Source of the DNA: an uncultured Bacteroidales bacterium
GTDB lineage: Bacteria; Bacteroidota; Bacteroidia; Bacteroidales; UBA4417
Length of the DNA: 37,859 bases
NCBI GenBank assembly: GCA_903879715.1
Contig: CAIRMR010000188.1
Location: forward strand, 1 to 37,859
Reading direction: 5' to 3'
The translations under genes were made by a program, and so were the position numbers. The first letter of the stretch is position 1, and the number at the start of each line of letters is the position of its first letter. Below, one piece after another: positions 16,393 to 35,061 of this stretch. The notes beneath the pieces were generated by a model that saw only the letters and a list, made by a program, of their open reading frames with translations, was not told where the DNA came from and made no database searches.

Positions 16393-18189
16393 ATGCAAAG
16401 CATCCGAAACATCGCAATTATTGCCCACGTCGACCACGGTAAAACAACACTGGTTGACAAGATATTACACAGCTGTAACCTCTTCCGCGACAACCAGGAA
16501 ACCGGCGAACTTATTCTCGACAACAACGACCTGGAACGTGAACGTGGCATCACAATCACCTCCAAGAACGTTTCTGTTGAATATAAAGGTGTAAAAATAA
16601 ATATTATTGATACTCCCGGTCACGCCGATTTCGGCGGTGAAGTGGAGCGCGTATTGAAAATGGCCGATGGCGTACTGCTTTTGGTTGATGCCTTCGAAGG
16701 ACCCATGCCACAAACACGGTTTGTAACCCAGAAAGCACTTGCACTTGGTTTGTTACCAATTGTTGTTATTAATAAGGTTGATAAGGAAAACTGCCGTCCC
16801 GACGAAGTTCAGGAGCAGGTATATGAGCTGTTTTTTAACCTGGAAGCAACCGATGAACAGCTTGATTTTCAGACGGTATATGGTTCGAGTAAGCAAGGTT
16901 GGATGAATACCACCTGGACTGAAGAAACTGACAATATTTTCCCGTTACTCGACGCCATCATAAAGTATATCCCTGAAGCCCCAATCCCTGAAGGACCTCT
17001 GCAAATGCAGATTACATCACTCGATTACAGTTCCTACGTAGGACGTATTGCAATCGGTCGTGTTTCGCGTGGTATAATTTCCGAAGGAATGAATGTTACT
17101 CTCCTGAAAAGAGATGGTGCGGTTACAAAATCAAAAATTAAAGAATTATATTCCTTTTCCGGTCTGGGCCGTGTTAAGGTAACCTCGGTTCACTCCGGCG
17201 ATATCTGCGCATTGGTTGGCCTCGAAGGTTTTGATATCGGCGACACCGTTACCGATCCTGATACGCCAGAGCGTCTTCCGGACATTCATATCGACGAACC
17301 AACCATGAGCATGCTATTTGCTATTAATAACTCACCATTCTTCGGGAAGGAAGGCAAATTTGTTACCTCACGGCATCTGAACGACAGGCTTCAAAAAGAG
17401 ATTGAGAAAAACCTGGCCCTTCGCGTGGAAGAAACAGGCTCCTCCGATCAGTTTATCGTTTACGGACGTGGTATTCTCCATCTTTCGATCTTGATCGAAA
17501 CCATGCGCCGCGAAGGTTACGAATTACAGGTTGGCCAGCCACAGGTAATTATCAAGGAAATTGACGGTGTTAAATGCGAACCTATCGAAACACTCATCGT
17601 TGATACACCACTCGAAGTTTCAGGAAAAGTAATTGACCTGGTTACCCAACGTCGTGGCGATATGCTTGCTATGACCCCGAAAGGCGACCTGATGCACCTC
17701 GAATTCGTTATACCATCACGTGGTATCATCGGACTTCGTAATGCTGTTCTGACAGCTACCGCCGGTGAAGCTATTATGGCTCACCGTTTCAAAGCATTCG
17801 AGCCCTGGAAAGGTACATTACCACAACGTCTTGCGGGTGTTCTGATCAGCATCGACACGGGTATGGCAACAGCCTACAGTATTGATAAGCTTACTGATCG
17901 TGGTCGTTTCTTTGTTGAGCCTTTCGACCAGATTTATGAAGGACAGATTGTTGGCGAAAACTCCCGCGATAACGACCTTGGTGTTAATATCTCGAAAGCC
18001 AAGCAGATGACCAACTTCCGTACAACGGCGAAGGACGAGGCCGTCCGCATGCCGCCGGCTGTTAAGTTTTCGCTAGAGGAAGCGCTTGAATATATCCAGA
18101 TCGACGAATTGGTTGAGATTACTCCGAAATCAATGCGTTTACGTAAGATTTACCTGAAGGAGCACGAGCGGAAGCGGATGTCGAAGTAG
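16393..18189 (+). CDS. typA: Translational GTPase TypA/BipA
   Basis: A 598-aa ribosome-associated GTPase of normal family length. The G-domain motifs are intact: G1 [10 protein letters not shown] (11-20), switch I RERGITI (49-55), G3 [11 protein letters not shown] (73-83) and G4 NKVD (127-130). These are followed by an EF-Tu-like domain 2 ([16 protein letters not shown]), an EF-G-like domain ([17 protein letters not shown] ... [21 protein letters not shown]) and the TypA-specific C-terminal domain ([17 protein letters not shown]...). TypA helps 50S ribosomal subunit assembly and stress or cold adaptation. It is transcribed alone from the upstream -7 box. Confidence 0.97.
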
Positions 18190-18224: not shown

Positions 18225-18495
18225 ATATAGTTTTGAAATTTACGATTTACGATTTACGAATGACGATTTACGATTGAGTATTTGAATTTATGATTTACGA
18301 ATGACGATTTACGATTGGGTAGGTCGTCATTTTTACTTAGGATTGAGGAATGACGATTTACGATTGGGTAGTTTGTCATTTTTAATTTACTGATCATTAT
18401 TTGCTGTAATTGTAATTTGTATCTTCACCCCATAAATTGTAAATCGTACCTCGTAATTCGTACCTCGTAAATTGTAATTCGTAAATCGTACCTCA
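18225..18495. repeat. TTACGATTTACGA repeat cluster upstream of the S46 peptidase
   Basis: The 19-mer gaatgacgatttacgattg occurs three times (18258-18276, 18299-18317, 18348-18366). The arm tacgatttacgaat (18248-18261) has an exact 14-base reverse complement at 18477-18490, five bases before the S46 ATG, and degenerate cgtacctcgtaa units fill 18440-18495. The peptidase leader is therefore composed almost wholly of these repeats, and no promoter could be picked out. Confidence 0.8.
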
Positions 18496-20649
18496 ATGAA
18501 ATCCCTCAAAATCTCTCTATTCCTTGTTTTTGTAACCATCTTCAGTCTTTTCGCCAAAGCCGACGAAGGCATGTGGTTACCCTTGCTGGTAAGCAAATAC
18601 AATATCAGCGCAATGCAGCATATTGGACTGAAGCTATCGGCAGATCAGATCTACAGCGTTAACCAGGCATGTTTGAAAGATGCTATCATTTCGCTGGATC
18701 ATGGCGGTTGCACGGGATCAATTATCTCAGAAAAAGGATTGCTGATCACAAACCACCATTGCGGGTACGAAGCTATTGCTGAACAAAGTTCTGTTGGTAC
18801 TGATTTTCTTACCGATGGCTTTTGGGCTATGCGTCCGGAGGAGGAATTGCCGATTCCCGGAAAAACGGTTTCCTTCCTCATCAGGATGGAAGATGTCACG
18901 GCCCGTATTCTGGCTAAAGTCACTTCCGAAATGGATGAAGGCGAAAGAGGCCAGGCAATTCAGAAAGAATCGGATCTGATTATCGAAGAAGCGGAGAAGG
19001 AGGCCGGTTCGGCATTTGAAGTTTCGGTTGAAAGTATGTTCGAAGGAAATGAATATTATATGTTTGTATATCAAACGTTTACTGATGTCCGCATGGTTGG
19101 TGCTCCGCCTTCGTCCATTGGTAAATTTGGTGGCGATACCGATAACTGGATGTGGCCGCGCCATACCGGGGATTTTTGCCTGTTGCGCGTATACTCCGGT
19201 GCCGATGGCAAACCTGCCGAATATTCAAAGACCAATCAACCCATGCAGCCTAAACACTTTCTTCCGGTTTCAATTGCCGGCGTTAAAGAAAGCGATTTTT
19301 CAATGATACTGGGTTATCCCGGTGCTACCGATCGTTACCTGACCTCCTACGGAATTCAGGAAAAACTTACCCAGACCAATCCTGCCGACATCAAAGCCAA
19401 ATGGGCCAAGATGGAAGTGATGAAAAAATATATGGACTCTGATGATGCTACCCGAATAGCCTATGCCGGTGATTATGCGTACCTGGGCAATTTCTGGAAA
19501 AAATCATTGCAGGAAAGCAAAGCGCTTTTGCGTTTAAAAGTATACGACGACAAAAAAAGAGTCGAAGACGATTTCCAGGCATGGGTAAACCAGGATGAAA
19601 GCCGGAAAACCAGGTACGGGAATGTAATCGATGATTTTAAAACTGTTTATAAAACAGCCTCCGACACGCGAGCCAACGAAGCAATAACCTATGCAGGTGA
19701 ATTGCTTATGGGTGCCCGAATCTTATATATTGCCTTTCAGACAGGTGAACTAAGCAGCAGGTTCGATTCAGCCGATTTTAACGAAATGGTAAACATCAAT
19801 AAAAACAGGGCAGCTAAGTTTTACAAAACCTTTAACCCGGCACTGGAAAAAGATATGCTCCTCAAAATGCTTGAAATTTATGCCAAAAATGTGGCTCCGG
19901 AATATATGCCTGATTGTTACACAACTATAGAAAAAAAATTCAAAGACGACTATAAAGAATATGTGGATCATATTTTTGAAAAGTCCATTTTTGCATCCAA
20001 AGCAAGTTTGATGGCATTTCTGAATAATCCGAAGAAGAAAACACTTCAAAAGGACCCGGCTTATATTGCGGCTAATTCATTTATTTCTTCGTATATGATT
20101 GCCCGTCTTTCGCAAATGACAGATGAGGATAAATTCTCAAAAGCCCGCCGCCTGTATATTGCCGGCTTACGTGAAATGAATCCCGGAACCACATTTTACC
20201 CGGACGCAAACAGCACTATGCGGTTAACCTACGGCACCGCTAAACCTTACAAGCCGGCTGACGCGCTGTTTGCCGATTACTATACCACTCTGCAAGGTGT
20301 TATGGAAAAGGAGGATTCGACCAATGCGGAATTTATCGTTTCGCCAAAGCTGAAGGATTTATATGCAAAAAAGGATTTTGGCCAGTATGCCGATAATGGA
20401 GTTATGCATGTGTGCTTCCTTACCACGCATGATATTACCGGCGGCAACTCCGGCAGCCCGGTTATAAATGGCAAAGGCGAACTGGTAGGACTTGCTTTTG
20501 ATGGCAACTCCGAAGCCATGAGCTCCGATATTAAATTTGATGTAAACCTGCAGCGGACTATCTGCGTGGATATACGGTATGTGCTATTTGTTGTAGATAA
20601 ATATGCCGGGGCCGGTTATCTGGTGGATGAGATGAAGGTTGTAAGATAG
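18496..20649 (+). CDS. S46 family dipeptidyl-peptidase, DPP7-like
   Basis: A 717-aa exported serine exopeptidase. Residues 1-22 are a signal peptide (SLFAKA-DEGMW), so it should act in the periplasm. The chymotrypsin-like triad is visible: H88 (TNHHCGYEAI), D226 (RHTGDFCLLRVY) and S652 (GGNSGSPV). The S1-pocket position following S652 is glycine (G670, LAFDGNSEAMSSD). In characterised S46 enzymes glycine here marks DPP7-type preference for hydrophobic P1 residues, whereas arginine marks Asp/Glu-specific DPP11. It releases dipeptides from oligopeptides, fitting with the two Xaa-Pro aminopeptidases downstream in the window. Start chosen by signal peptide and family length. It is followed by a terminator. 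Confidence 0.95.
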   Translation: MKSLKISLFLVFVTIFSLFAKADEGMWLPLLVSKYNISAMQHIGLKLSADQIYSVNQACLKDAIISLDHGGCTGSIISEKGLLITNHHCGYEAIAEQSSVGTDFLTDGFWAMRPEEELPIPGKTVSFLIRMEDVTARILAKVTSEMDEGERGQAIQKESDLIIEEAEKEAGSAFEVSVESMFEGNEYYMFVYQTFTDVRMVGAPPSSIGKFGGDTDNWMWPRHTGDFCLLRVYSGADGKPAEYSKTNQPMQPKHFLPVSIAGVKESDFSMILGYPGATDRYLTSYGIQEKLTQTNPADIKAKWAKMEVMKKYMDSDDATRIAYAGDYAYLGNFWKKSLQESKALLRLKVYDDKKRVEDDFQAWVNQDESRKTRYGNVIDDFKTVYKTASDTRANEAITYAGELLMGARILYIAFQTGELSSRFDSADFNEMVNINKNRAAKFYKTFNPALEKDMLLKMLEIYAKNVAPEYMPDCYTTIEKKFKDDYKEYVDHIFEKSIFASKASLMAFLNNPKKKTLQKDPAYIAANSFISSYMIARLSQMTDEDKFSKARRLYIAGLREMNPGTTFYPDANSTMRLTYGTAKPYKPADALFADYYTTLQGVMEKEDSTNAEFIVSPKLKDLYAKKDFGQYADNGVMHVCFLTTHDITGGNSGSPVINGKGELVGLAFDGNSEAMSSDIKFDVNLQRTICVDIRYVLFVVDKYAGAGYLVDEMKVVR

Positions 20650-27318: not shown

Positions 27319-27437
27319 AGGTTGTAAAGTGAAAAATCCAAGGGGTAAAGGTAAGGGAATTTTTTGAAGGTGGGAATGGGGAGAATAAGCTGGCTTCACT
27401 GCATTTTTAAAAGCAATTTTCTAGGCTCATCTTCCAT

Positions 27438-27474
27438 AAAAAAAACCTGAAAGCCCGTTAATGCATTTCAGGTT
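27438..27474 (-). terminator. Rho-independent terminator after sdhB
   Basis: On the minus strand the 9-bp stem aacctgaaa / tttcaggtt (13-base loop) is followed by a run of eight T. It lies about 30 bases after the sdhB stop codon and should end the sdh transcript. Confidence 0.85.
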
Positions 27475-27504
27475 AATATCATAAGTTTTAAAAATAAACC
27501 AGAG

Positions 27505-28278
27505 TTAAAATCCTCCTCCGCTGACCTTATCTTTCTGCGCCCCTATTTTTGCCCCCAGATATTCCCTGTTCATCCGCGCAATATTATCTATTGAAATCTC
27601 TTTCGGACATTCAGCTTCGCAGGCTCCTGTATTGGTGCAGTTTCCAAAACCAAGTTCATCCATTTTGGCAACCATAGCCTGAACCCTGCGGGTAGCTTCG
27701 GCTTTGCCTTGTGGTAACAATGCCAAATGCGATACTTTAGCAGCTACGAATAACATGGCAGATGCATTTTTACAGGCTGCAACACAAGCGCCACACCCAA
27801 TACATGCTGCCGCGTCCATGGATGAATCAGCATTTTCCTTTGGAATCAATATAGCATTCGCATCAGGAATTCCCCCGGTATTCACCGAGATAAATCCTCC
27901 TGCCTGTATAATTTTGTCAAAAGCCTGGCGATCGACCATCAGGTCGCGGATAACAGGGAATGCCTTGGAACGCCAGGGCTCAATAACGATGGTATCACCA
28001 TCTTTAAATTTACGCATATGCAACTGGCAGGTGGTAACCGCGTCATCGGGTCCATGCGGACGGCCGTTGATATACAGGCTGCAGGCACCACAAATACCTT
28101 CGCGGCAATCGTGATCGAATACAATAGGATCTTCTCCTTTAATTACTTGCTGTTCATTAACAACATCAAGCATTTCGAGGAATGAACTGCTGTCGCTGAT
28201 ACCGTTTATTTTATACGTGGCAAATTTGCCTTTGGCTTTGGCATTCTTCTGACGCCATATCTTTAGTGTAAAGTCCAT
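27505..28278 (-). CDS. sdhB: Succinate dehydrogenase/fumarate reductase iron-sulfur subunit
   Basis: A 257-aa cytoplasmic electron-transfer subunit. The N-terminal [2Fe-2S] ligands are C58, C63, C66 and C84 (CREGICGAC...C). The C-terminal ferredoxin domain has [11 protein letters not shown] (C159, C162, C165, C169) and [11 protein letters not shown] (C214, C220, C224), the ligand set expected for one [4Fe-4S] and one [3Fe-4S] cluster. It carries electrons between the SdhA flavin and the membrane subunit SdhC. It is the last gene of the operon, but an extra gene and repeats separate it from sdhA by 681 bases. A telomere-like repeat lies five bases upstream of its ATG. Confidence 0.95.
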
Positions 28279-28283
28279 AGTTG

Positions 28284-28319
28284 AAGGGATTAGGGTTTAG
28301 GGGTTAGGTTTTAGGGGTG
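28284..28319. repeat. TTAGGGG-like repeat arm upstream of sdhB
   Basis: The plus strand reads gggattagggtttagggg and continues ttaggttttagggg. On the coding (minus) strand it is C-rich and ends five bases before the sdhB ATG. The 15-mer ttaggttttaggggt here is an exact reverse complement of part of the arm at 28898-28958. Confidence 0.85.
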
Positions 28320-28370
28320 GTGCTATAAATTATTGCTTTCCTTAATTCGAAACCTCTGTTCCTTATTTAT

Positions 28371-28748
28371 TTACTTTTTTATATTTTCGAGCTTTGTAAT
28401 CATTGCATTTAGCATTCTTCCAATTTCATTTAATTTGTTTTCAATCTCATCACAAGTTTCCTTTTTGATGTATTCCTGATTATACGCTATGATAATCAGC
28501 GTATTAAGTTCAAAAAGTGATCCTCTTGATATTTCCAGAAACTGGATGTAGTTCTTTGTTGTGCCTCTTCCCCAGCCTTCAGCTATGTTCGCAGGAATCG
28601 AAATAGCTGCTCTTCTAATTTGACTTGTTAAACAATACAACTCCTCTTTTGGGAATTTTTTAGTCGCTTTATATATATCGTTTACAAGTTCAATTCCTTT
28701 TTGCCAAACAAATAGATCTTTAAATGATTCAATCTTTTTATTTTCCAT
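28371..28748 (-). CDS. Four-helix-bundle protein (S23 / 23S rRNA intervening-sequence family)
   Basis: A 125-aa protein with the whole family signature: SFKDLFVWQKGIELVNDIY (residues ~8-26), FPKEELYCLTSQIRRAAISIPANIAEGWGRG (~33-63), LEISRGSLFELNTLIIIA (~72-89) and a C-terminal helix. Homologues are encoded inside intervening sequences of some 23S rRNA genes and occur as many scattered copies in Bacteroidetes; related proteins serve diversity-generating retroelements as Avd. The biochemical role is poorly known. Here it lies within the sdh operon in the same direction, so it should be on the sdh transcript. Reverse transcriptase genes and template repeats of a retroelement are absent from the window. 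Confidence 0.9.
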   Translation of the reverse strand: MENKKIESFKDLFVWQKGIELVNDIYKATKKFPKEELYCLTSQIRRAAISIPANIAEGWGRGTTKNYIQFLEISRGSLFELNTLIIIAYNQEYIKKETCDEIENKLNEIGRMLNAMITKLENIKK

Positions 28749-28752
28749 TTAT

Positions 28753-28782
28753 TTAAGGTTTTAGGATTTGGGGTTTAGGGAT
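28753..28782. repeat. Internal TTTAGGG-like repeat
   Basis: ttaaggttttaggatttggg followed by gtttaggga has the same orientation as the arm at 28284. It lies directly upstream of the four-helix-bundle start codon, so that gene is bracketed by direct copies. Confidence 0.75.
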
Positions 28783-28897
28783 GGTACAGAGTAGGTTAAG
28801 CTATCTTTTAATGAAGACCTTATTTCCGGATTTAATATTATAATTACTTTCAAACTCATTGACAAACAGGGTCTTAATGTAATATTTTGTAAGTATG

Positions 28898-28958
28898 GCC
28901 CCTAACCCCTAAAACCTAAAACCCAACCCCTAAAACCCAACCCCTAAAACCCAACCCC
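28898..28958. repeat. 14-bp minisatellite, potential G-quadruplex, at the sdhA stop
   Basis: taaaacccaacccc is repeated three times without change (28917-28958), after degenerate cccctaaaacct units from ~28898. It ends one base before the sdhA stop codon. On the sdh sense strand the unit is GGGGTTGGGTTTTA, which gives six consecutive runs of three or four G, enough for a G-quadruplex in DNA or mRNA. Confidence 0.9.
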
Positions 28959-28959
28959 T

Positions 28960-30900
28960 TTATTTATAATTCCTCTGCTTAACCTCAATAGCTTCATATT
29001 CAAGAGATTCTTTATTGAGTATGGGTTCTTTGCTGTCACCATTATATTCCCATGCAGCCACATACATATAATCATCATCATTACGTAAAGCTTCTCCTTC
29101 AGGAGTCTGATATTCTTCACGGAAATGCCCGCCGCAGGATTCTTCCCGATTCAGGGCATCTATTGCCATCAGTTCACCTAATTCCAGGAAATCGGCAACA
29201 CGACCTGCTTTTTCCAACTCAGGATTTACCTCATTGAATTCTCCGGTTATCTTAACATCTTTCCAGAATTCGGCTCTCACTTCACGAATCATCGTTATCG
29301 CTTTCTGAAGTCCTTCCTTATTCCGTGCCATGCCAACATATTCCCACATTATCTTCCCTAGCTGGCGGTGGAAGTGATCAACAGTTTTGGTTCCTTTTAC
29401 ATCGAAAAGCTGCTGTAGACTGGCTTTTACCTGTTTTTCAGATTCAATAAATTCGGGTAAATCTGTTTTAAAGCGAGGAACATTAATCTGGTCAGCCAGG
29501 TAATTCTGAATGGTATAGGGTAAGACGAAATATCCGTCGGCTAGTCCCTGCATCAAAGCCGAAGCGCCCAAACGGTTTGCACCGTGATCGGAGAAATTGG
29601 CTTCGCCGGCAACAAATAATCCCTTTACAGTCGACATCAGGTCATAATCAACCCAGAGGCCACCCATAGTATAATGCACAGCGGGATAGATCATCATTGG
29701 GTTTTCGTATGGATTTTCATCAACGATCTTCTGATACATCTGGAACAGGTTTCCATAACGTTCTTCAATAACATTCCTGCCAAGACGTTTGATGGAATCC
29801 GCGAAATCAAGATAAACAGCCAGTCCTGTTTCGCCAACGCCAAATCCGGCATCGCAACGCTCTTTTGCGGCACGCGAAGCTACATCGCGCGGAACCAGGT
29901 TTCCGAATGCCGGGTAACGACGTTCAAGGTAATAATCGCGGTTTTCTTCGGCAATATCTTTAGGCTTCATTTTGTTATGACGAAGCGCTTCCACATCTTC
30001 CTTGCGTTTCGGAACCCAGATGCGGCCATCGTTACGCAAGCTCTCGCTCATCAACGTGAGTTTCGACTGGAAATCGCCATGAACCGGGATACAGGTCGGG
30101 TGAATTTGTGTAAAGCAGGGATTTCCGAAGAAAGCACCTTTTTTATATGCTTTCCAGATGGCAGTTGCATTGCTGCCCATAGCATTTGTCGAAAGGAAGA
30201 ATACATTTCCGTAACCACCTGTGGCAAGCACAACAGCATGAGCCGAATGTCGTTCAATTTCACCTGTAACCAGGTTGCGTGCTATGATACCGCGGGCACG
30301 ACCGTCGATAATAACGACATCGAGCATTTCGTGGCGGGTATAGGATTCCACGTTTCCAAGGCTAACCTGCCTGCTCATGGCACTGTAGGCGCCAAGCAAT
30401 AATTGCTGGCCGGTTTGTCCGCGGGCATAAAAAGTACGCGAGACCTGTGCTCCGCCAAACGAACGGTTGTCGAGCAATCCGCCATATTCACGGGCAAAAG
30501 GAACACCTAGTGCAACAGACTGGTCGATGATGCTGCCGCTTACTTCGGCAAGCCGGTAAACATTGCCTTCGCGGGCGCGGTAATCGCCGCCTTTAATGGT
30601 GTCGTAAAACAAACGGTAAACGCTGTCGCCATCATTCTGATAATTTTTTGAGGCATTAATACCGCCCTGTGCGGCAATACTATGCGCACGTCGCGGGCTG
30701 TCCTGGTAACAGAAAGCTTTTACCTTAAACCCCAAAGCACCTAAGGATGCCGCCGCCGACGCACCGGCAAGCCCGGTTCCAACGACAATAATATCGAGTT
30801 TCCTCTTATTCGAAGGGTTTACAAGGGCAATATGGTCCTTATAACTGCTCCATTTTGTGGCAACAGGCCCCTGTGGTATTTTTGAATTAAGTTTTGTCAT
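28960..30900 (-). CDS. sdhA: Succinate dehydrogenase/fumarate reductase flavoprotein subunit
   Basis: A 646-aa catalytic subunit carrying covalent FAD. The start [11 protein letters not shown] at 30900 is preferred over an in-frame ATG 27 bases upstream. Visible features are the dinucleotide-binding [16 protein letters not shown] (residues ~40-55), the [11 protein letters not shown] motif with the FAD-linking histidine, HPTCIPV near the active site, [12 protein letters not shown] and the [17 protein letters not shown] block. It interconverts succinate and fumarate on the cytoplasmic face. The gene begins 47 bases after the sdhC stop, so they are co-transcribed. Sequence alone does not decide the physiological direction. 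Confidence 0.95.
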
Positions 30901-30947
30901 ACAAATTATACTTTTATCAGCTGACAATCAGCAATTTGATGTGCCTG

Positions 30948-31613
30948 TTACTTTGTGAAAATAAAAAATAAAGGAATGCTTGCAAATCCCAGCGGAACCA
31001 CAACCGAATAGATAGTACCTGCGGCTTTAATAAAAGGTGTGTATTTGGTGTGATTCAGCCCCAATGTCTGAAATGCCGACTGGAAAGCGTGGTGAAGGTG
31101 AAATCCCAGGAAAATCATCAGCACCACATACAAAACGGCATAAAACCTGTCAGCGAAAAGTGAGTTAGCCATCTGGTAAAAATCTTCTTTCTCAACCCCG
31201 GCCGGAGGACTAACCAATCCAAGTTTCACAAAATAGAAATTGGTAAAATGAATGCATAGAAAAATAAAAATGATTGCACCTGTGTGGATCATATACTTTG
31301 AGAAAAACGAAAGGTGTGAGTACCCGGCAACTTTATATCGTACGGGTCGTGCCAGCCAGTTTTGAATCTGGATAAAGACTCCGATAACAATATGAATGGC
31401 AAAGCCGCCCATCAGGAATATCTCCATGATTTTTACCAGGGGATTGGTAGTCATAAATTCAACAGCGACCTTAAAGGCGGCTCCATCATCGTTACTCAGA
31501 AGCAGAAGGTTAATTGCCAGGTGAACAACCAGAAAAGTAATTAAAAAGAGGCCTGCAAGGGCCATTACCACTTTTTTTGTGATTGATGAGTAAAATAAAT
31601 ATTTATTGCCCAT
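30948..31613 (-). CDS. sdhC: Succinate dehydrogenase cytochrome b558-type membrane subunit
   Basis: A 221-aa integral membrane protein with five predicted helices, of the single-subunit diheme b-type family (as in Bacteroidetes and Bacillus) that replaces SdhC plus SdhD. Candidate heme-ligand histidines are in VVHLAINLLL (H31), FAIHIVIGVFIQIQNW, IHFTNFYF and FLGFHLHHAFQSAFQ. It anchors SdhAB and passes electrons to or from (mena)quinone. It is the first gene of the operon. A -7 box lies 85-92 bases upstream of its ATG, within a divergent control region shared with the aminopeptidase gene. Confidence 0.93.
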   Translation of the reverse strand: MGNKYLFYSSITKKVVMALAGLFLITFLVVHLAINLLLLSNDDGAAFKVAVEFMTTNPLVKIMEIFLMGGFAIHIVIGVFIQIQNWLARPVRYKVAGYSHLSFFSKYMIHTGAIIFIFLCIHFTNFYFVKLGLVSPPAGVEKEDFYQMANSLFADRFYAVLYVVLMIFLGFHLHHAFQSAFQTLGLNHTKYTPFIKAAGTIYSVVVPLGFASIPLFFIFTK

Positions 31614-31636
31614 ACGATTATTGATTTGATATATTT

Positions 31637-31689
31637 ACAGGCAACACTAAATTTTGCATTGAAAATAATTCATACTTTTGGTTGCCTGT
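31637..31689. promoter_or_regulatory. 9-bp inverted repeat in the sdhC/aminopeptidase divergent region
   Basis: acaggcaac (31637-31645) and gttgcctgt (31681-31689) are perfect inverted copies, 35 bases apart. They flank the -7 box of the rightward promoter and lie in the 5' leader of the leftward sdh transcript. They could be an operator pair or an mRNA hairpin. Confidence 0.5.
31653..31680 (+). promoter_or_regulatory. Promoter for the Xaa-Pro aminopeptidase gene
   Basis: TTTG at 31653-31656 and TACTTTTG at 31673-31680 fit the Bacteroidetes -33/-7 pattern with a 16-base gap. The predicted leader is about 115 bases. Confidence 0.5.
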
Positions 31690-31697
31690 GAGTGGAA

Positions 31698-31705
31698 CAA
31701 ATATA
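31698..31705 (-). promoter_or_regulatory. -7 box for the sdh operon
   Basis: The minus strand reads TATATTTG (plus strand caaatata), matching TAnnTTTG, about 85 bases upstream of the sdhC start. No clear -33 TTG at normal spacing was found. Confidence 0.5.
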
Positions 31706-31802
31706 GAAACAATACTATTTGAATTCCGAACATCAGGTATAAAAATTGGTTTTTTTTAAAAGAAAACGCCAATTACCTTTCAACTAATTAAATACCAGCA
31801 AA

Positions 31803-33089
31803 ATGCGATATCAACCTATCCGGAAAGAAATGTATATCAGTAACCGTGCAAAGCTTGTTGCTAAGCTGAAACCCGGTTCGCTGGCCATTGTCAACTCAAA
31901 CGATGAAATGCCGCGATCAGGCGACCAGACTCATCCTTTCAGGCAAAACTCGGATATGTTTTATCTTACCTGTCTCGACCAGGAGAAATGCATTCTGACA
32001 TTTTGCCCTGAGCATCCTGTTGAAAGTATGCGCGAATTGCTGTTCACGGTGAAAACTAACGATCTGATGGTGATCTGGAATGGTCACAAATACACATTGG
32101 AGCAAGTTAGCGAAGTTTCCGGGATAAAGAATGTAAAATGGCTGGATGAATTTGAAATTACATTACGCGATTTGATGTCGAGAGTGCAGGTTGTTTACCT
32201 GAACCAGAACGAATACCCGAAATTTATAACAGAAGTACCATCCCGTGATGTTCGGTTTGCAGCTAAAATGTTGCAGGACTTCCCTGTTCATACGTATGAG
32301 CGGCTTGCACCCATTATTACTGAAATGAGGCTTATAAAAGAACCGGAGGAAATTGTGCAGATTCAAAAAGCGTGCAACCTCACCAATGATGGTTTTCGCC
32401 GCGTGCTTCAGTTTGTTAAACCAGGCGTTCTGGAGTATGAAATTGAAGCCGAATATACCCATGAGTTTATCCGCAAAGGAGGCACCGGCCATGCATATCC
32501 TCCGATTATAGCCTCGGGTGCCAACGCATGCATTCTTCATTACAATACCAACTTCAATACGTGTAAGGACGGCGATCTGCTGCTTATGGATGTGGGAGCC
32601 GAATATGGAAACTATGCCGCAGATATGACACGGACAATTCCCGTCAACGGCAAATTCAGTCCACGGCAACGTCAGGTTTATAATTCTGTACTGCACATTT
32701 TGAAATCCGCTGCTGCAATGTTAAAACCGGGAACTTCCATTGAAAAATGGCATGGCGAAGTCTGTAAACTGATGGAAAAGGAATTGGTTGGATTGGGCTT
32801 GATAAATAAGCAGGAATTAAAAAGACAAACCGCTGATTCACCGGCGTATTTCAGGTATTATATGCACGGAACAGGCCATTTTCTTGGCCTTGATGTACAC
32901 GATGTAGGCTCACGCCAGGTCGTTTTCGAAAGCGGTATGGTTATGACCTGCGAGCCAGGGATTTATATCCCTGAAGAAGGTATCGGAATTCGTCTCGAAA
33001 ATGATATTATGGTTGCCGAAGAGCCGATAAATCTTATGGCCGCCATTCCGGTTGAGCCGGATGAAATTGAGGAATTGATGAGGGGATAG
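31803..33089 (+). CDS. Xaa-Pro aminopeptidase (M24B), copy 1
   Basis: A 428-aa cytoplasmic metallopeptidase that removes an N-terminal residue preceding proline. The N-terminal creatinase-like domain (residues ~1-165; RSGDQTHPFRQNSDMFYLTCLD) is followed by the pita-bread catalytic domain. The dinuclear metal ligands are D263 and D274 (MDVGAEYGNYAADMTR), H359 (GTGHFLGLDVHD), E384 (CEPGIY) and E399 (IRLEND), all present. The ATG at 31803 gives the family-normal start. A paralogue starts 578 bases downstream. The TAG stop lies inside a TTAGGGG-like repeat. Confidence 0.93.
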   Translation: MRYQPIRKEMYISNRAKLVAKLKPGSLAIVNSNDEMPRSGDQTHPFRQNSDMFYLTCLDQEKCILTFCPEHPVESMRELLFTVKTNDLMVIWNGHKYTLEQVSEVSGIKNVKWLDEFEITLRDLMSRVQVVYLNQNEYPKFITEVPSRDVRFAAKMLQDFPVHTYERLAPIITEMRLIKEPEEIVQIQKACNLTNDGFRRVLQFVKPGVLEYEIEAEYTHEFIRKGGTGHAYPPIIASGANACILHYNTNFNTCKDGDLLLMDVGAEYGNYAADMTRTIPVNGKFSPRQRQVYNSVLHILKSAAAMLKPGTSIEKWHGEVCKLMEKELVGLGLINKQELKRQTADSPAYFRYYMHGTGHFLGLDVHDVGSRQVVFESGMVMTCEPGIYIPEEGIGIRLENDIMVAEEPINLMAAIPVEPDEIEELMRG

Positions 33090-33666: not shown

Positions 33667-35061
33667 ATGTTTAATCCTGAAATATACACCGAACGACGTA
33701 ACGCATTGCGAAACCTGATGCCATCAGGCCTTATCCTGTTACCGGGTAATTCCGAAGCTGCTTATAATTATCCTGCTAATACATACACCTTCAGGCAGGA
33801 CAGCAATTTCTCCTATTTCTTCGGGCTCGAAAATCCTGACTTCACTGGTATTATTGATATTGATAACGGTATCGATTATATTTTCGGTAACGACTTCGAG
33901 ATTGATGATATCATCTGGATGGGCCCGCAACCCAAAGTAGTTGACCTGGCTGTAAAAGTTGGCATCAAAAACACAGCTTCATTAAGCGAATTGACGGTAT
34001 TCATAAATAATGCTATACAGAAACGCCGGCCAATTCATTTTGCTCCGACTTACCGCGCTGAAACCACATTGCAGGTTTGCGGACTCTTAGGCCTTAATCC
34101 TTTACGTATCCGCGATTACGCTTCCTTACCCTTGATTGAAGCTGTAATTAAACTTCGTTCGGTTAAGTCAGAGCTGGAAATTGCTGAAATTGAAAAAGCA
34201 ATAGGCACTGCCTGGCATATGTTTACAACCGGAATGCGCATGGCTTATCCAGGCCGGAAAGAACAGGAAATCGTAGGCGCAATGGAAGGGATTTCAATCG
34301 CTCATGGAAGGCCTGTTTCATTTCCTATCATTTTAAGCACTAACGGGCAAATCCTGCATAATCATCACCACGAAAATATTCTCCAGGAAGGCCGAATGAT
34401 GGTAATGGATGCCGGAAGCGAAACTTCGCTGAATTATTGCAGTGATATTACACGTACCGTACCTGTCGGTGGAAAATTCAGCCAGAAACAGCGTGAAATT
34501 TATGAGATTGTGCTCAACGCTAATCTGAATGGAATAGCTGCCACCAAACCCGGTACTTTTTACCGCGATTGCCATACAGTTGCCTGCGAAACGATAGCCA
34601 CTGGTTTAAAGGACCTGGGACTGATGAAAGGCGATGTTAAAGAAGCTGTTGTTGCGGGTGCTCACGCGCTTTTCCTGCCTCACGGCCTCGGGCATATGCT
34701 TGGCCTTGATGTACACGATATGGAAGGACTCGGGCAGATACATGTGGGCTATGACAGTGAGATTCAGCCCAGCTCGCAGTTCGGTACCGCATACCTGCGC
34801 ATGGGCCGCCGTTTACAGCCCGGTTTTGTGATTACCAATGAGCCAGGAATCTATTTTATTCCCGAACTTATCGATATGTGGAAAGCCGAAAAGAAATACG
34901 CGGAATTCCTGAATTATGATAAAATTGAAGAATACCGCAATTTCGGGGGTATCCGTATTGAAGATGATATCCTCGTTACTGCTGACGGTCACCGCGTTTT
35001 GGGCAAACCAATTCCAAAAACCGTAGCCGAAGTTGAAGCTACCATGGCAGATAGGTTATAG
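33667..35061 (+). CDS. Xaa-Pro aminopeptidase (M24B), copy 2
   Basis: A 464-aa metallopeptidase of the aminopeptidase P group. The N-terminal domain (MFNPEIYTERRNALRNLMP..., TFRQDSNFSYFFGLENPD) is followed by the catalytic domain with ligands D248 and D260 (MDAGSETSLNYCSDITR, one residue longer than usual), H343 (HGLGHMLGLDVHD), E392 (NEPGIYF) and E432 (IRIEDD). All metal ligands are intact. It differs from copy 1 by an insert of about 35 residues before and within the EPGIY region, so the two genes are old paralogues rather than a fresh duplication. The TAG stop is embedded in the first unit of a 20-bp repeat. Confidence 0.93.
   Translation: MFNPEIYTERRNALRNLMPSGLILLPGNSEAAYNYPANTYTFRQDSNFSYFFGLENPDFTGIIDIDNGIDYIFGNDFEIDDIIWMGPQPKVVDLAVKVGIKNTASLSELTVFINNAIQKRRPIHFAPTYRAETTLQVCGLLGLNPLRIRDYASLPLIEAVIKLRSVKSELEIAEIEKAIGTAWHMFTTGMRMAYPGRKEQEIVGAMEGISIAHGRPVSFPIILSTNGQILHNHHHENILQEGRMMVMDAGSETSLNYCSDITRTVPVGGKFSQKQREIYEIVLNANLNGIAATKPGTFYRDCHTVACETIATGLKDLGLMKGDVKEAVVAGAHALFLPHGLGHMLGLDVHDMEGLGQIHVGYDSEIQPSSQFGTAYLRMGRRLQPGFVITNEPGIYFIPELIDMWKAEKKYAEFLNYDKIEEYRNFGGIRIEDDILVTADGHRVLGKPIPKTVAEVEATMADRL

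Follow-up and report, generated by a model that had tools for sequence, protein, structure and literature searches.

In the window (the whole stretch of 37,859 nucleotides analysed here, one contig of a 6.07-Mb genome), the gap between sdhA and sdhB contains an S23/IVP gene with TTAGGGG-type repeats on either side, in arrays inverted with respect to each other. Complementary arms of other sequence were found around most of the other S23 genes tested, as the preliminary description of this DNA had suggested should be checked. We hold it to be rather likely that the insert is a member of a widespread group of compact cassettes, probably mobile and selfish, and the operon counterpart of the intervening sequences (IVSs) of rRNA. 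Such a cassette would consist of an S23/IVP gene with an array of short repeats, mostly of 7 nt, at each end, the two in inverted orientation, would occupy the gaps between operon genes and would be expressed from the host transcript; because of this putative life in operon gaps and dependence on the host transcript it would correspond, in protein operons, to the S23-bearing IVS of 23S rRNA. The two arrays are predicted to fold together, most likely as single-stranded DNA during movement and possibly as RNA too, and the S23 protein probably recognises its own arrays.

The S23 gene and its repeat arrays in the sdh operon

The operon is read from the minus strand in the order sdhC, sdhA, S23, sdhB (Table 1). 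The preliminary description had reported an S23-type gene in a 681-base gap between sdhA and sdhB; this gap length equals that given by the ORF coordinates, and the gene was identified by its match to PF05635 (cut-off 33.8 bits) and by 140.6 bits to TIGR02436. Its protein has a relative of solved structure in the PDB, 2gsc_A (E 3.7e-37). The gap between sdhC and sdhA, given earlier as 47 bases, is 20 bases with the listed TTG start, and 47 bases would require a start nine codons further in, in keeping with the alignment of the family model from residue 10. The region 27400-31800 gave zero Rfam matches up to E 0.1, the insert lying between sdhA and sdhB and outside an rRNA gene. The GC content in 300-base windows was 31-35% over the insert and 41-55% over sdhA and sdhB. 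Elsewhere in the window, two adjacent genes (31803-33089 and 33667-35061) are of aminopeptidase P type, M24 with AMP_N.

Table 1. Positions of the sdh genes, the parts of the insert and a gene-less hairpin in the window
Feature	Position	Strand	Basis
sdhC, first gene of the operon	30948..31613	-	TIGR02046, 190 bits
sdhA, host gene upstream of the insert	28960..30927	-	PRK07573, 1195.9 bits
S23 / 23S rRNA-IVP four-helix-bundle gene, 125 aa	28371..28748	-	PF05635, 143 bits
sdhB, host gene downstream of the insert	27505..28278	-	PRK07570, 435.1 bits
sdhA-side array, upstream arm in sense; GGGGTTGGGTTTTAGGGG-type 7/14-mers	28899..28958	-	direct and inverted repeats
AT-rich spacer, sdhA-side array to inner array	28781..28898	-	sequence
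Third, inner array, same sense as the sdhB-side array	28757..28780	-	inverted pairs I5-I7, 87-88% complementary
Segment past the S23 stop, contains AAGGAACAGAGG	28340..28370	-	by-eye comparison of sense strands
sdhB-side array, downstream arm in sense; ACCCCTAAAACCTAACCCCTAAACCC	28284..28318	-	pairs with the sdhA-side array, score 50
Gene-less heptamer hairpin, TTTACGA units	18238..18486	.	inverted arms, score 43, period 7

The sdhA-side array, G-rich in sense, begins directly past the sdhA stop codon, and the sdhB-side array, C-rich in sense, stops a few bases short of the sdhB start codon. The inner array, C-rich in sense, abuts the S23 start codon from upstream and could alone pair with the sdhA-side array; the spacer between these two arrays varies in length among orthologous cassettes. 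By eye, the segment carrying AAGGAACAGAGG could be traced in other cassettes and also where the gap lacks a gene, in G009 and, less clearly, in G005.

The 15-mer TTAGGTTTTAGGGGT is present at 28304-28318 on the plus strand and its exact reverse complement at 28905-28919, as had been described; with one mismatch allowed it gave five matches in the window, all within the sdhA-sdhB gap, where 0.01 were expected. Longer inverted pairings in the gap extended over 51 nt at 78% and over 36 nt at 83% complementarity. The repeats, earlier termed telomere-like, are TTAGGGG-type 7-mers that often come in 14-nt pairs, and they are not true telomere repeats. The sequence GGTTTTAGGGGT occurs 15 times in the genome, four times in the sdhA-sdhB gap, and by coordinates none of the other 11 copies is near any of the genome's 12 other above-cut-off S23 genes. 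A search of the genome for further copies of the whole unit found none, the next S23 protein being 48% identical. The PF05635 match, the inverted arrays and the 15-mer support the earlier view of a gene of the rRNA IVS family in a loop closed by complementary ends. The observation of an S23 gene and complementary repeats in this gap is thus confirmed, while its interpretation as an IVS-like element in an mRNA is supported in part.

Distribution of the gene at the sdhA-sdhB gap

Sixteen congeners were searched with sdhB and the gap was resolved in 15 (the sequence of G011 begins inside sdhB). The S23 gene was intact in five (G000, G003, G008, G007 and G002), the proteins of the last four being 76-94% identical to that of the window, and one further gap carried a decayed copy (G010). 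Two gaps (G012 and G014) harboured a PF13366 (GxxExxY) gene between CGCAAAGACGCAAAG-type complementary arms; in G012 the left array is almost identical to its counterpart in G002, so that one cassette appears to have taken the place of the other. The remaining seven had no gene in the gap, which measured 72-179 bases, stop codon included. By eye, stretches like the right end of the S23 cassette were found in the gene-less G009 and, more weakly, in G005 and G015, which suggests that a cassette was lost there. G001, G004 and G006 have a short, bare gap without a pre-existing hairpin, and that of G013 holds other low-complexity repeats.

Outside the genus, 43 genomes were searched and 40 had sdhB; of the 30 loci returned, 28 had a resolved gap, representing 28 families. 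The gap was only 1-94 bases in 24 of these, and longer without S23 in three (G031, G027 and G021), that of G031 looking by eye like a gene-less repeat hairpin. The gap of G027 (L373), a genome of another family, contains a different inverted repeat, CGTCATTGCGAGGAGG / GCAATGACG. The one remaining genome, G034, has an S23 gene in its sdh gap (L033), with a repeat-like stretch beginning about 9 bases past the sdhA stop and arms recognisable by eye only (arm score 18). In the tree, L033 does not join the clade formed by the five genus copies but branches in a poorly resolved region, and since the other 27 families had no S23 gene at this site, an independent insertion would be the simplest reading. 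The comparison among relatives which the preliminary description had called for thus revealed presence and absence in 15 congeners and 28 families, and the conservation across distant relatives which it had named as contrary evidence was not seen. Presence and absence at a site, as looked for in a mobile element, was found at the sdhA-sdhB gap and also at the biotin carboxylase and CoA-transferase gaps described below.

The S23 ORF at the sdh site is under purifying selection: dN/dS was 0.05-0.12 in the ten pairs formed by the five orthologues, rough values in that most dS exceeded 1. This constraint, together with the sense orientation and the position in the operon, is what would be expected of an ordinary operon gene serving succinate dehydrogenase. 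We regard such a role as most improbable on account of the distribution: the gene is intact in only five of 15 congeners and present in one of 28 other families, it has decayed in G010, another gene stands in its place in G012 and G014, and related S23 genes occupy other operons.

Complementary arms around S23 genes and other cargo

In the arm test, the 300 bases upstream of a gene were aligned to the reverse complement of the 300 bases downstream, and own pairs of flanks were compared with mismatched pairs. The order set comprised 76 S23 loci, seven from the genome itself, 29 returned by search and 40 hand-picked places in the same genus, for which hits at contig edges were mostly avoided; these loci represent 46 sites, so orthologues are counted repeatedly. 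One locus with a flank below 150 bases was left out of the arm test and one with a protein below 100 aa out of the tree, leaving 75 in each. The GTDB set, with loci from many phyla, was made up of the best 80 of 584 candidates listed and therefore leans towards close relatives of the query; 75 of its loci were used.

Own pairs of the order set scored 37.3 on average and mismatched pairs 19.5 (sd 5.3; n=75 of 76), and 23 of the 75 reached at least the 99th percentile of a mismatched pool that includes cassettes from the same site. The corresponding means in the GTDB set (best 80 of 584 listed) were 34.1 and 18.3 (n=75); there, 43/75 own pairs reached at least the 99th percentile, against 12/75 in direct orientation, and the own pair was the best of its row in 40/75. 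Scores of at least 30 were obtained for 51/75 inverted and 18/75 direct alignments in the order set (30 of 46 sites when one locus per site was taken) and for 45/75 and 13/75 in the GTDB set (best 80 of 584 listed), which leaves 24 and 30 S23 genes, respectively, under this score. Among control genes of other kinds, 2 of 215 scored at least 30.

Within the genome of the window, eight of the 13 above-cut-off S23 genes scored at least 30 and two more had arms by eye; none were seen at L348, L352 and L353, which may be domesticated copies. Autocorrelation of the flanks showed peaks at 7 (and 8), 14 and 21 that were absent from the S23 ORF. The arms, of period 7 or 8, differ between S23 lineages and match within a cassette, the repeats including GTCGGAAG, GTTGTCATTCAG, GGTTGAT, TTAGGCTG, GGGGAGACTGGGCGAG and others. 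The TTAGGGG arm was rejected as a fixed mark of S23 genes, being absent from the six others first checked; each lineage has its own repeat. No Rfam match indicating an rRNA context was found at the 20 loci scanned of the 80 in the GTDB set (best 80 of 584 listed). Orthologues nearly identical to L348 occur in G003 and G009, and L353 is flanked by tRNA-Pro and tRNA-Ser genes. Pairs of S23 genes with starts about 0.5 to 3 kb apart occur in G042:C67, G039:C4, G027:C596, G055:C86 and G013:C15, which suggests local duplication.

Arms follow the S23 lineage from site to site. Among different-site pairs, arm similarity rose with S23 protein identity (r 0.28; 0 of 2000 permutations), and both arms were alike (score at least 28) in 41% of the 17 pairs at 70% identity or more and in 0.2% of the 1656 pairs at 25-35%, sites being assigned by tblastx of the flanks, such that contig ends may hide some shared sites. 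One lineage, 70-79% identical across sites, occupies two types of gap with partly similar arms: that between biotin carboxylase and biotin carrier genes (G000, G008, G009 and G012) and that between CoA-transferase subunits (G003 and G015). The former measures 638 bases with S23 in G000 and 57 bases in G003, between neighbours that are 99% identical; the 57 bases have no visible sequence in common with the filled gap of G000, and this comparison therefore yields no clean insertion footprint. Near-identical dispersed copies were not seen among the loci compared, where the closest different-site pair was 79% identical in protein.

GxxExxY genes (PF13366) constitute a second cargo. From 34 loci, 32 were used; L072, missed by tblastn, was dropped though its arms were visible by eye. 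Own pairs averaged 33.3 and mismatched pairs 20.5, scores of at least 30 were reached by 22/32 inverted and 6/32 direct alignments, and the repeat units were about 10 nt long. Two gaps hold S23 at some loci and GxxExxY at others: sdhA-sdhB and a second one represented, for GxxExxY, by L153 and L157, whose neighbours are common to the S23 loci there (82-86% identity upstream, 84-85% downstream). Operon gaps would thus be a shared niche in which the two kinds of cassette replace each other. On a wider scale, and in a proposal that we hold tentatively and at slightly less than even confidence, S23 genes at large may ride one superfamily of mobile cassettes with lineage-specific heptamer ends, of which the rRNA IVS would be a special case; the S23 pentamer would recognise its own array, arrays and protein would co-evolve, and GxxExxY, with its units of about 10 nt, would use the same insertion niches. 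A rule combining an S23 gene, matched heptamer arms, sense orientation and an operon gap or rRNA loop would join operon cassettes and rRNA IVSs and, if true, would explain a class of telomere-like or low-complexity intergenic repeats as traces of cassettes.

Arrays were also found without S23. A scan of 338,638 bases of the genome revealed nine inverted clusters at a score of at least 36: the sdh cassette, six short low-complexity gene-less hairpins, one of which overlaps a called ORF, one cluster around small ORFs and one of another kind. The hairpin in the window separates two codirectional genes, one for a BipA/TypA GTPase (16393-18189) and one for an S46 peptidase (18496-20649). Period-filtered hairpins were sparse, with six in 339 kb of this genome, three in 306 kb of S23-bearing genomes and one in 305 kb of S23-free genomes, as counted by a filter that failed to pass the sdh cassette and two of the hairpins that can be seen in its list. 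Of the three from S23-bearing genomes, two enclose host genes, one of them panB (L293) and the other a gene for a methyladenine glycosylase (L306); in L293 (1822-3139) long complementary GTGAACC heptamer arrays flank panB, the right one entering the open frame of the next gene. L125 (16878-18197) carries GGGGCGATAGAGCG-type inverted arrays around small ORFs, one of them ParE-like. Since arrays also occur without S23, and some around host genes, complementary arrays are not exclusive to S23.

Some gene-less hairpins match motifs of gene-bearing cassettes in the same genome (GTAAGGTATAAG, AATAGAAAATGG and CACAGATT). S23 (or GxxExxY) might accordingly be the autonomous member of a REP/RAYT- or MITE-like system and hairpins of the same motif its non-autonomous offspring, which we consider somewhat unlikely. 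These shared motifs are what this reading would predict, REP/RAYT elements and the cassettes both have a small gene between inverted repeats as well as related intergenic hairpins that lack a gene, and Y1_Tnp genes in this genus are likewise flanked by repeats, of a different kind. However, the hairpin counts are too sparse to lend it weight, S23 is not known to have catalytic activity, and S23 is, unlike RAYT, no Y1 transposase, its arms being 7-mer arrays where the Y1_Tnp genes of the genus have REP-like palindromes.

The gene-less hairpins of this genome, such as that in the window and counted by the period filter at six in 338,638 bases, could also belong to an independent family into whose loops S23 and GxxExxY land as passengers, much as rRNA IVSs replace the loops at helix tips. 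In agreement with this, hairpins lacking a gene were seen by eye between the CoA-transferase genes of several congeners and, as it seems, between sdhA and sdhB of G031, but those in the CoA-transferase gap mostly have a motif other than that of the S23 cassettes there, the arm motif tracks the S23 lineage between sites, and no hairpin pre-exists in the bare sdh gaps of G001, G004 and G006. Such a passenger relationship appears quite unlikely, and we prefer the reading of a mobile cassette that carries its arrays with it, probably moving as hairpin DNA.

Many Y1 transposase genes of the genus (L311-L339) have GCCCCGTAGGGGC-type REP-like repeats on both sides and form a separate system; on account of these repeats (25 of the 30 returned loci were scored), the idea that Y1 transposases carry the arms seen around S23 genes was rejected.

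Orientation, pairing in the transcript and relation to known elements

S23 genes with codirectional neighbours lie mostly in sense, at 59:2 sense to antisense in the order set (33:2 by site, with seven mixed) and 51:3 in the GTDB set (best 80 of 584 listed), and GxxExxY genes at 25:0. The directions of the flanking genes disagreed at 7/68, 16/70 and 6/31 loci of the order, GTDB and GxxExxY sets, respectively; orientation was taken roughly, from the longest open frame in each flank, which classified 68/76, 70/80 and 31/33 loci and was inconsistent at two sites. This bias fits a gene depending on the host transcript; it would equally arise if antisense insertions were selected against.

IVSs of 23S rRNA are excised by RNase III without ligation, and a true IVS in an mRNA would behave likewise: the arms would pair in the sdh transcript, RNase III would cut the stem, the S23 piece would be removed or separated, and messages for sdhA and sdhB would remain. 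Several observations are consistent with this. The gene family and the loop geometry are those of rRNA IVSs, the sense bias just given (59:2, and 51:3 among the best 80 of 584 listed) is in agreement, and RNA duplexes of own flanks were on average stronger than those of mismatched flanks, with means of -77.5 and -57.7 kcal/mol in the order set and -91.0 and -70.8 kcal/mol in the GTDB set (best 80 of 584 listed). Yet few own duplexes lay beyond the 1st percentile of the mismatched ones, 16/75 in the order set and 9/75 in the GTDB set (best 80 of 584 listed). A G.U bias was sought as a sign of pairing in sense RNA and was not found: arm mismatches were G.U and A.C in a ratio of 93:150 at 30 loci (one per site), 61:73 at 45 loci and 36:49 at 22 loci. 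An excess of G.U is expected if arms are kept for pairing in the sense transcript, and the lean is the opposite; excision from the mRNA is therefore hypothetical, and we judge it unlikely.

PMC4990558 describes the Coxiella IVS as having complementary sequences at its borders, being excised by RNase III and carrying tandem GACAGAT heptamers, variable in number between strains, ahead of the S23 ORF. This excision and the heptamers are in keeping with the same mechanism here. Heptamers upstream of an S23 ORF in that IVS and the period of 7 in the flanks analysed here strengthen the link to rRNA IVSs which had been proposed for this gene. The Coxiella ORF is considered in the same paper to be unexpressed and decaying, unlike the ORF at the sdh site, which is under purifying selection; the paper also mentions a solved S23 relative that forms a homopentamer and gives no known function for S23/IVP proteins (PMC4990558). 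In CPR bacteria, according to PMC11270868, insertions in 16S and 23S rRNA carry IVP ORFs and are mostly located at the top or base of stem-loops.

The cassettes resemble the 23S rRNA IVSs of Leptospira and Coxiella in having an S23 ORF in a loop with complementary ends and a sporadic distribution, and differ from them in occupying the gap of a protein-coding operon and in having lineage-specific arrays as arms. The bAvd protein of diversity-generating retroelements belongs to a related four-helix-bundle family, and the S23 gene matched bAvd at 40.3 bits (cut-off 40), its only match otherwise being to PF05635. Unlike a retroelement Avd gene, it scored 46 against the DivGenRetAVD equivalog, whose cut-off is 80, and a scan of 16 ORFs of the window revealed no reverse transcriptase domain. 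Neither such an enzyme nor a transposase was linked to the cassette. STRR heptanucleotide repeats of cyanobacteria are intergenic 7-mer arrays, from which the cassette arrays differ in being inverted around an S23 gene, as also in the Phormidium locus L218. Among titles and abstract beginnings of the open-licence PMC literature, no prior description was recognised of S23 genes that are located outside rRNA and flanked by complementary heptamer arms.
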